Below are positions 11,378 through 13,100 of a DNA stretch of 25,878 bases, in pieces. This DNA is from a virus, in IMG/VR virus record IMGVR_UViG_3300038701_001771, positions 1 to 25,878 of that record. One strand, written 5' to 3'. Every line of letters begins with the position of its first letter. Within the stretch, counting starts at the first letter, position 1. Both the position numbers and the translations under genes were made by a program. The notes beneath the pieces were generated by a model. That model was not told the DNA's origin and searched no databases. It saw nothing but the letters and a program-made list of their open reading frames with translations.

Positions 11378-11387
11378 AAGGCACGAC

Positions 11388-11708
11388 ATGAGAGACGAAA
11401 CAGACCTTTTGAAATTCGTAGAGACCGAGCGGGCGACCTATGAGATCTGCCGCCGCTTTGCCATATCGTCCTTCATGGTGCCCCGGCGCATGGAGGCTCT
11501 CGAAAAGGCAGGGCTGGTCAAACGCACAGTGCGGATGCGTAAAAGCAGCAAGCAGGCTCACTACGTCCGCACGGACAAGCCCTATGAGCCGCCCAGGACG
11601 TTGGAGGAGCGCAACGCCGAATTGGGGCGGGTGTCGGTCCGCAAGACGTTCTACGAGCAATTCAGGACGCGCCGCGCCATCGTGACCCTGCCGGGAGGTC
11701 TGGCATGA
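11388..11708 (+). CDS. Winged-helix DNA-binding protein
   Basis: 106 residues from the ATG with a GAAAGG ribosome site. Residues about 8-60 form a winged helix: helix (D-L-L-K-F-V-E), helix-turn-helix (A-T-Y-E-I-C-R-R-F-A-I-S-S-F-M-V-P-R-R-M-E-A-L) and a basic wing (L-V-K-R-T-V-R-M-R-K). A C-terminal segment, L-E-E-R-N-A-E-L-G-R-V...I-V-T-L-P-G, recurs in the protein at 11917-12231, so the two are likely paralogues. It overlaps the next start by four bases. It probably regulates transcription within the early operon. Confidence 0.7.
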   Translation: MRDETDLLKFVETERATYEICRRFAISSFMVPRRMEALEKAGLVKRTVRMRKSSKQAHYVRTDKPYEPPRTLEERNAELGRVSVRKTFYEQFRTRRAIVTLPGGLA

Positions 11709-11920
11709 CTGACCCCGTGAACCACCCCGAGCACTACACGCAGCACCCCAGCGGCGTCGAGTGCATCACCATCACCGAACACATGACTTTCAATCTCGGC
11801 AATGCGGTCAAATACGTTTGGCGCGCGGATCTGAAAGGCGACGCCATCGAGGACCTGAAAAAGGCCCGTTTCTACATCTGCCGCGAGATTGACAGGATCG
11901 GCCGGGAGGCGCGGAAATGA
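11705..11920 (+). CDS. DUF3310-family protein
   Basis: 71 residues. It matches the DUF3310 pattern common in phages: N-H-P-E-H-Y near the start (6-11), then E-C-I-x-I-x-E-H-M (19-27), F-N-L-G-N-A-V-K-Y-V-W-R (29-40), K-G-D-A-I-E-D-L-K-K-A-R-F-Y (44-57). The family is sometimes labelled nucleotide-kinase-like, but its activity is not settled. The start is fixed by an ATGA overlap, and its stop overlaps the next ATG too. It stands between two related winged-helix genes. Confidence 0.88.
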   Translation: MTDPVNHPEHYTQHPSGVECITITEHMTFNLGNAVKYVWRADLKGDAIEDLKKARFYICREIDRIGREARK

Positions 11921-12231
11921 ACACCGTCGAGATATTGGCCTTCCTGGCTGAACCCCGGTCACCCTCCGAGGTCGCGCAAGTGCTCGGCATTCGGTCCAAG
12001 GGCGTGCGGCATCGCTTGGCGCGTCTGATCGAAAGCGGCCATGTCGGCTGGACAGCCACAGCAGCAGGTAAGCGCCGCTATCACAGCACCGGCAAGCCGC
12101 ATGAAGACATGGAAACATGGCAGGAGCGCACAGCGCGCCTTGGGCGTCATCAGGTCGTAAAGAAAACCAGGATGCATGGCGGTCAGGGCTACCGCGTCAA
12201 CCGCATCACACTGCCGGGGATGCCGGTATGA
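11917..12231 (+). CDS. Winged-helix DNA-binding protein, paralogue of 11388-11708
   Basis: 104 residues. The N-terminal winged helix reads I-L-A-F-L, then P-S-E-V-A-Q-V-L-G-I-R-S-K-G-V-R-H-R-L-A-R-L (helix-turn-helix), then a wing with G-W-T-A-T-A-A-G-K-R-R-Y. The C-terminal half, W-Q-E-R-T-A-R-L-G-R...Y-R-V-N-R-I-T-L-P-G, parallels the earlier gene. Start and stop both overlap neighbours by four bases, so it is co-translated with DUF3310 and the methyltransferase. It could regulate either, or bind DNA jointly with its paralogue. Confidence 0.7.
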   Translation: MNTVEILAFLAEPRSPSEVAQVLGIRSKGVRHRLARLIESGHVGWTATAAGKRRYHSTGKPHEDMETWQERTARLGRHQVVKKTRMHGGQGYRVNRITLPGMPV

Positions 12232-13100
12232 CCGAAAAACTGCGTGTTCTGGATCTATTCAGCGGCATCGGCGGGTTCAGTCTGGGGCTTGAGCGGACCG
12301 GTGGCTTTGAAACCGTTGCATTCTGCGAAATCAAGGAATTCCCGCGCCGGGTGCTCGCGAAACATTGGCCGGAGGTGCCGTGCTATCATGACGTCAGAGA
12401 CCTTACAGCCGACACTTTGGGCCGAGACGGAATTGCCGTTGACGTCATCACCGGAGGTTTCCCTTGCCAGGATATCTCAGTCGCAGGGCGAGGCGCGGGA
12501 ATCGAGGACGGGACTCGCTCAGGCCTTTGGTCTGAAATCGTGCGACTTACTCGCGAGCTATCACCCCGCTACGTCATCGTGGAGAACGTCGCAAACCTGC
12601 TTAGTGGCCCAAGCGAACGGCGAGGGGGATGGTTTGGCCGAGTTCTCGGAGACCTGGCCTCGCTCGGGTACGATGCGGAATGGCATTGCATACCAGCTTC
12701 CGCCCTTGGCGCGTCGCACCGACGAGACAGGGTGTGGATTGTGGCACACCCCGCGACACAACGACGGGAAGAAGCGGGGGAGGGTGGGGCCAGACCCCCG
12801 AAATGGACTGGCGGGTCAGGCGAGACACCCGGCAATGTGGCCCACGCCGCAAAAGTCGGACAACAGGGGCAGGGGCTGCTTGCGGAATGGTGCGATCCAG
12901 AAGCGAATGGCGCGCGGAGAGCGGCTTATGCTTTCGCAGGTCGTGAGTTGGGAGAATGGGCGGCTGAACCCGCGCTGGGTCGAGTGGTTGATGGGTTTCC
13001 CGGTCGAGTGGACCAATGCAGCGCCCTCGGAAACGCAGTCGTCCCGCAAATCCCGCAACTGATCGGCCATGCCATTTTGGAAACGGAGGCAGCAGCATGA
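12228..13100 (+). CDS. DNA cytosine-C5 methyltransferase
   Basis: 290 residues. It transfers a methyl group from S-adenosylmethionine to cytosine C5. Motif I is D-L-F-S-G-I-G-G-F (9-17), motif IV G-G-F-P-C-Q-D-I-S (76-84) with catalytic Cys80, motif VI V-E-N-V, motif VIII R-R-D-R-V-W-I-V-A, and the C-terminal motif X A-L-G-N-A-V-V-P-Q-I. The region between VIII and X, where target recognition should lie, is short and Gly/Ala-rich. The start is fixed by an ATGA overlap. No restriction nuclease is nearby, so it is an orphan enzyme, likely protecting phage DNA from host restriction. A second long frame lies inside it. Confidence 0.95.
   Translation: MTEKLRVLDLFSGIGGFSLGLERTGGFETVAFCEIKEFPRRVLAKHWPEVPCYHDVRDLTADTLGRDGIAVDVITGGFPCQDISVAGRGAGIEDGTRSGLWSEIVRLTRELSPRYVIVENVANLLSGPSERRGGWFGRVLGDLASLGYDAEWHCIPASALGASHRRDRVWIVAHPATQRREEAGEGGARPPKWTGGSGETPGNVAHAAKVGQQGQGLLAEWCDPEANGARRAAYAFAGRELGEWAAEPALGRVVDGFPGRVDQCSALGNAVVPQIPQLIGHAILETEAAA
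12388..13062 (+). CDS. Long ORF nested in the methyltransferase gene (+1 frame)
   Basis: 224 codons on the same strand, entirely inside the methyltransferase gene. It has GGAGGT 11 bases before the ATG. The translation is ordered rather than random: S-W-R-T-S-Q (64-69), F-S-E-T-W-P-R-S-G-T-M-R-N-G (86-99), A-Y-Q-L-P-P-L (101-107), G-L-W-H-T-P...D (117-126), M-W-P-T-P...S-D (150-158) and G-R-L-N-P-R-W-V-E-W-L-M-G-F-P (191-205). From memory this motif series recurs in many annotated phage proteins, with variable numbers of W-P-T-P units. The last motif resembles methyltransferase motif IX. The function is unknown. It could be a true overlapping gene or a conserved by-product of the methyltransferase frame. 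Confidence 0.55.
   Translation: MTSETLQPTLWAETELPLTSSPEVSLARISQSQGEARESRTGLAQAFGLKSCDLLASYHPATSSWRTSQTCLVAQANGEGDGLAEFSETWPRSGTMRNGIAYQLPPLARRTDETGCGLWHTPRHNDGKKRGRVGPDPRNGLAGQARHPAMWPTPQKSDNRGRGCLRNGAIQKRMARGERLMLSQVVSWENGRLNPRWVEWLMGFPVEWTNAAPSETQSSRKSRN

Follow-up and report, generated by a model that had tools for sequence, protein, structure and literature searches.

Multi-specific phage C5-cytosine methyltransferases (C5-MTases) of the SPR/phi3T type combine a single catalytic core with several recognition units that can be interchanged. M.EcoHK31I recognises the sequence YGGCCR and M.AquI CYCGRG, and the small-subunit ORF of M.EcoHK31I is said to lie in another frame within its large-subunit ORF. 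Both are natural two-polypeptide C5-MTases: in M.EcoHK31I, motifs I–VIII and X and a predicted recognition domain are located in the large subunit and motif IX in the small one, and M.AquI is divided into a catalytic part and a second one that holds the distal recognition region and motifs IX and X (PMC3404938). Since these natural splits have been described, the principle of a split enzyme is already known (PMC3404938). Methylase genes of actinophages can contain an out-of-frame HNH endonuclease, the ShiLan domain (PMC11855218). Apart from this unrelated insertion, a literature search for nested phage methylase genes yielded nothing relevant.

The window, that is, the whole 25.9-kb stretch of viral DNA analysed here, corresponds by gene content to a temperate tailed phage, with genes for an integrase, transcriptional regulators, a RusA-type resolvase, a primase/helicase-like protein, an HNH protein, a terminase, a portal and a major head protein. 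It contains a C5-MTase frame (alpha) and, nested in it, a second frame (beta; Table 1). No restriction nuclease partner was recognised among the scanned neighbours of alpha and beta, several of which are of unknown family, and the methyltransferase therefore looks like an orphan. Just 5' of it there are two small ORFs (11385–11708 and 11917–12231) that look winged-helix, have similar ends (TLPGG and TLPGM) and are possible tandem paralogues.

Table 1. Coordinates within the window of alpha, beta and their sequence elements
Feature	Position	Strand	Evidence or conservation
Alpha, catalytic subunit of a C5-cytosine methyltransferase (290 aa; motifs I–VIII and X, no in-frame motif IX)	12228–13100	+	Pfam DNA_methylase, 4e-41; Foldseek to M.HhaI
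Alpha motif I (LDLFSGIGG)	12249–12275	+	
Candidate Shine-Dalgarno of beta (GGAGGT), within alpha codons P48-E49-V50	12371–12376	+	Sequence
Beta, nested frame +1 to alpha (224 aa), inferred target-recognition/motif IX subunit	12388–13062	+	PHROG 1008, 6.7e-27; stop depletion; codon constraint
Alpha motif IV (GGFPCQ, catalytic Cys)	12453–12470	+	P79, C80 and Q81 invariant in 80 sequences
Beta motif SWRTSQ (beta residues 64–69)	12577–12594	+	W in 97/127 loci; encoded over alpha Val codon GTG
Alpha motif VI (ENV)	12582–12590	+	Same bases in +1 form part of beta SWRTSQ
Beta motif ETWPRSGTMRNG (beta residues 88–99)	12649–12684	+	W in 112/127 and P in 110/127 loci; alpha Ala codon GCC
Beta recognition cassette 1 (WHTP..., module M3)	12742–12837	+	11 loci, 11 neighbour types
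Beta recognition cassette 2 (WPTP..., module M1)	12838–12960	+	25 loci, 16 neighbour types
Beta motif IX (LNPRWVEWLMGFPVEWT)	12964–13014	+	P195, M202, G203 and P205 invariant in 94 sequences
Alpha motif X (GNAVVP)	13029–13046	+	Largely without beta constraint

A conserved gene nested in the methyltransferase frame

The initial annotation of the window had described a 675-base +1 ORF with GGAGGT upstream. Both are present, the ORF starting with an ATG at 12388, and so are all the motifs that it had named: SWRTSQ, ETWPRSGTMRNG, WHTP (beta residues 119–122), WPTP (151–154) and LNPRWVEWLMGFP (193–205). As it had also stated, the alpha frame over the LNPRWVEWLMGFP bases reads RVVDGFPGRVD.

Homologous loci were collected from viral sequences, 80 via beta and 80 via alpha (the latter not selected on beta), and from 80 bacterial contigs, and named records were added. 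Stop codons were counted against a null of synonymous shuffling that keeps the alpha protein and the alpha codon counts. For the window alone, the +1 core stayed open in 15% of the shuffles (p = 0.15), which is unremarkable, and the evidence therefore rests on the homologues. In every locus found via alpha, the +1 frame was open over at least 173 codons of the core. Between alpha columns 59 and 244, the 45 non-redundant viral loci of this group contained a single +1 stop, against about 131 expected; outside the overlap the same loci showed no depletion, neither at the N-terminus (63 stops, 66 expected) nor in the motif X region (68, 58 expected). When 115 loci were tested over the core, 22 stops were found in the +1 frame versus 275 expected, and 865 in the +2 frame versus 816. 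Frequent nested-frame stops in homologues, which would have refuted a nested gene, were thus not encountered.

Synonymous positions of alpha behaved in the same way. Pairwise identity at fourfold-degenerate third bases was 33–37% outside the overlap, 57–67% over most of it and 95% over motif IX; it was 0.34 in the region 76–105, where beta is less constrained. The codon for V118, which precedes ENV and where beta requires TGG (Trp), was GTG in 85 of 86 cases, that for A144 was GCC in 100 of 101, and that for V253, under motif IX, was GTG in 101 of 102, versus mixed Val codons in columns 1–52 (GTG in 195 of 522). Motifs VI–VIII showed constraint on both frames. On the motif IX bases the beta frame was the better conserved (beta Met in 124/127 loci, alpha Asp in 43/127). 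Over the cassette stretch, identity between loci was 0.63 for beta and 0.33 for both the alpha frame and the unused third frame; these pairs were picked by beta similarity, which favours the beta value, and only the equality of alpha and the third frame is unbiased. In the cassette region, the alpha frame is a passenger.

An untranslated nested frame, open and conserved in appearance only through the alpha protein sequence and codon bias, would be compatible with the p value of the window itself and with the location of some +1 motifs over invariant alpha motifs. We nevertheless give this reading almost no credence: the shuffle that preserves both the alpha protein and its codon counts expects about 131 stops where one was seen, the free third positions of alpha are fixed at the places that matter to beta and vary in the rest of the gene, beta outdoes alpha in conservation at motif IX, and in the cassettes alpha is no more conserved than a frame that is not used. 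The fixed alpha codons, and a beta motif IX that is better conserved than the alpha residues encoded by those bases, also led us to reject the artefact of methyltransferase constraint that the initial annotation had kept among its possibilities. Its proposal that two conserved proteins share this DNA was borne out by stop depletion, third-base constraint and constant pairing of the frames. The criterion for dual coding, constraint on both frames over the overlap, was met, and the 12388–13062 frame is confirmed as a real conserved gene nested at +1 in the cytosine methyltransferase gene.

Pairing was followed with a beta profile in 398 evenly sampled genomes from a single bacterial phylum. The profile matched in 26 of them, and in all 19 loci fetched from this sample beta lay at +1 of an overlapping alpha. 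The same nesting was observed in phages of Lactobacillus, Paenibacillus, Mycobacterium, Microbacterium, Acinetobacter and Salmonella, in N15, in the BASEL phage Bas73, in a Leptospira plasmid and in an E. coli prophage; whenever the named phage and prophage cases were read in three frames, beta was nested with alpha. No standalone beta gene was found, all the betas examined being nested with an alpha. In E. coli K-12 dcm, which encodes a one-chain enzyme, the motifs share one frame and the +1 frame contains 14 stops. An uncultured Roseovarius chromosome carries the alpha/beta locus at least five times in one assembly (L175, L176 and L178–L180), which suggests a multi-copy mobile element or prophage.

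Division of motifs and cassettes between the frames

Alpha met the criteria for a C5-MTase in having motifs I, IV (PCQ), VI (ENV) and VIII and a Rossmann large domain, and its residues E119, N120 and V121 were invariant. Its match to Pfam PF00145 (DNA_methylase) comprised residues 6–177 only, and that to TIGR00675 likewise ended at about residue 177, covering motifs I–VIII only. The structure model of alpha contained a confident large domain (I–VIII) and the motif X helix, with residues 185–268 predicted to be disordered, and Foldseek matched it only to the large domain of M.HhaI (175 residues, 1.8 A). According to Pfam, TIGR00675 and the structure model, motif IX and a recognition domain are absent from the alpha frame. 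Nor does the large subunit contain a recognition domain as in the M.EcoHK31I type: the alpha stretch between VIII and X was conserved no better than a non-coding frame, and the cassettes lie in beta. The alpha segment GRVADGVP had been considered as purely beta-dictated; this was dropped, and the segment may also be a genuine alpha element, because in class 3 relatives (see below), L267 for example, a similar PRVATGIKERVNRL and motif IX follow in series.

The N-terminal part of beta contains SWRTSQ and ETWPRSGMMRNG, and between one and four W-P-T-P cassettes precede its motif IX. ETWPRSGTMRNG overlaps alpha residues 142–153, just 5' of motif VIII. Cassette modules were defined by strict clustering, since looser clustering had chained all of them into one group, and they recurred with changing neighbours, giving 68 architectures among 127 betas. 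Judged from sequence, this recurrence matches the behaviour of putative exchangeable recognition units; specificity itself is inferred. The hidden +1 partner of phage N15 gp58 (L340, 407–1402) has a GGYQGGRIRNGK cassette like M12 of distant viral contigs. In the Paenibacillus polymyxa plasmid pAP1 (L250, 2268–3758), the beta frame has two copies of motif IX, LNPTWVECLMGFP plus LNPAWVECLMGFP, a tandem duplication inside a 496-aa alpha ORF.

Like the beta of the window, 94 of 94 beta homologues matched the profile of PHROG 1008 ('DNA methyltransferase'). No Pfam or NCBIfam family for beta was found, and querying the PDB sequences with a profile of beta revealed no solved relative. The AlphaFold model of beta alone was poor (pLDDT 66.8) and matched nothing in PDB structure searches; since this model is weak, no fold is claimed for beta.

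Motifs IX and X were not tied to one frame. In class 1, the commonest, which includes the window, beta contains IX and alpha contains X. In class 2 (L203, L237, L241 and L252–L265), IX lies in the alpha frame with the cassettes still in +1, and because of this location alpha may depend less on beta. In class 3 (L266, L267, L268 and L282), both IX and X lie in beta; in L266, L267 and L282 beta holds the cassettes, IX and X, and alpha stops shortly past VIII or inside the cassette region (just past VIII in L266 and L282). Wherever the cassettes could be placed, they were in +1, except in frameshifted loci such as L192. These frame divisions, with the cassettes staying in +1, link beta to the small domain of the methyltransferase more strongly than the motif match does by itself.

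Several loci carry frameshifts in the overlap. In Mycobacterium phage Seabastian (L162, 1218–1977; also Llama, Ochi17 and others), a frameshift splits alpha and fuses the N-terminal part of beta in frame to the C-terminal part of alpha, so that the two annotated methylase genes do not correspond to the intact pair of proteins; the locus is intact in relatives such as Nitzel. In L192 (2720–3570) and L246 (2380–3160), indels swap the tails of both frames, reflecting either decay or sequencing error.

Beta might instead be a separate effector (an anti-restriction protein, a regulator or an inhibitor of alpha) sharing DNA with alpha by happenstance, as could be argued from the lack of a solved relative of beta and the frequency of anti-restriction genes in phages. 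It holds, however, the very motif IX that alpha is missing, class 3 betas carry motif X as well, and no beta examined was without an overlapping alpha, all of which makes this possibility highly improbable. The initial annotation had listed a partner subunit, a target-recognition protein and an anti-restriction protein as candidate functions. The first two, probably one and the same thing, are favoured, because motif IX and a folded small domain are both missing from alpha, and it is beta that provides motif IX, together with variable cassettes.

Inferred expression of beta and the proposed two-subunit enzyme

The GGAGGT in the window is located 11 nt 5' of the beta ATG, a long spacing. Of the 127 loci, 53 have a GGAGG, AGGAG or GAGGT match at the corresponding place, and the element is thus not universal. 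A +1 ATG was present within alpha columns 49–61 in 110 of 127 loci. Y53 of alpha, whose codon enables this ATG, was encoded by TAT in a ratio of 76:26, versus 203:384 elsewhere. The +1 frame of the window is open further 5' (from 12232 onward, with a GTG at 12244) and conservation begins only near the ATG. A promoter-like site was not found.

These observations bear on whether the C-terminal half of beta could be an extension of alpha, produced by programmed frameshifting as a fusion of alpha (I–VIII) with the beta cassettes and motif IX, and without internal initiation. The same-strand +1 layout and the tail-exchanging indels of L162, L192 and L246 are consistent with such a fusion. We consider it highly improbable, since beta conservation starts near the conserved +1 ATG and extends 5' of any useful shift site (columns 59–75, SWRTSQ), and a fusion has no need of the N-terminal motifs of beta. 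Internal initiation is thus favoured over frameshifting, on account of the conserved ATG, the TAT preference and the conservation directly downstream.

The analysis shows the anatomy of the locus, that both frames are conserved and under selection, that alpha and beta are constantly paired and that cassettes are reshuffled. Beyond this, we hold it very probable that the locus encodes a two-subunit C5-MTase in which beta, internally initiated, is the target-recognition/motif IX subunit. This reading follows from the absence of motif IX in alpha and its presence, with variable cassettes, in beta; translation, the dimer and activity are inferred. Alpha, in frame 0, would fold as the catalytic large domain (I–VIII) plus the motif X helix, with its VIII–X stretch as an unfolded bridge whose sequence would mostly follow the beta frame. 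Beta, presumed to start at the internal ATG and to be read in +1, would contribute two recognition cassettes and motif IX as a small domain gripping the DNA major groove, and its conserved N-terminal part would probably dock on alpha, forming the inferred heterodimer. The pair would methylate cytosines at sites that the cassettes select, if these are indeed the specificity elements, and its most likely role would be shielding phage DNA from host restriction. Cassette exchange among phages would then alter specificity and leave catalysis untouched. Against this two-subunit enzyme stand the absence of protein or activity data, a small-domain fold not shown for beta, the non-universal Shine-Dalgarno (53/127) with its long spacing in the window, the class 2 loci, whose alpha frame holds motif IX and may need less from beta, and the account of M.EcoHK31I, according to which the predicted recognition domain belongs to the large subunit (PMC3404938).

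Comparison with described methyltransferases

More broadly, we regard it as likely that a widespread lineage of phage and bacterial C5-MTases is obligately dual-coding, with catalysis in one frame, swappable cassettes and motif IX in +1, motifs IX and X able to switch frames, and only half of the enzyme annotated in most genomes. GenBank K1ind2 annotates both overlapping ORFs; the remaining named records that were read annotate the alpha frame alone, or fragments thereof, and no full-length beta, a cut Microcystis phage record being a partial exception. If true, many phage and prophage 'DNA cytosine methyltransferase' genes, among them N15 gp58 and those of BASEL phage Bas73 and E. coli prophages, represent half an enzyme as annotated. 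A recoded alpha cloned from annotation would then wreck beta and could pass for an inactive enzyme, and prediction of specificity would require the hidden beta frame. The family also constitutes a large natural data set on two proteins evolving on shared bases, with the active frame known per region.

The breadth of the lineage, dual coding shown by selection, cassettes in the alternate frame and the frame changes of motifs IX and X look new. For PHROG 1008, linked to beta by the profile match, and for ORF28 within ORF29 of GenBank K1ind2 and K1ind3, both frames being annotated in K1ind2, no account of function or of a conserved overlap was found in the literature examined. The locus shares swappable recognition units with the SPR/phi3T-type enzymes, but theirs are in one chain and one frame. 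The ShiLan insertion resembles beta as a second protein out of frame inside a phage methylase gene; it differs in being a mobile insertion with no part in the methylation reaction (PMC11855218).

The window meets the M.EcoHK31I criterion of a large subunit with I–VIII and X and of motif IX only in the small subunit. It differs in carrying its cassettes in beta, whereas the recognition domain of M.EcoHK31I is said to belong to the large subunit, and in having no recognised partner nuclease among its scanned neighbours, whereas M.EcoHK31I is part of a restriction-modification system. With respect to M.AquI, motif X of the window remains in alpha and beta is fully nested; L266 and L282, in contrast, are split in the manner of M.AquI. 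Class 1 thus resembles the division of M.EcoHK31I, and class 3 has that of M.AquI (PMC3404938).
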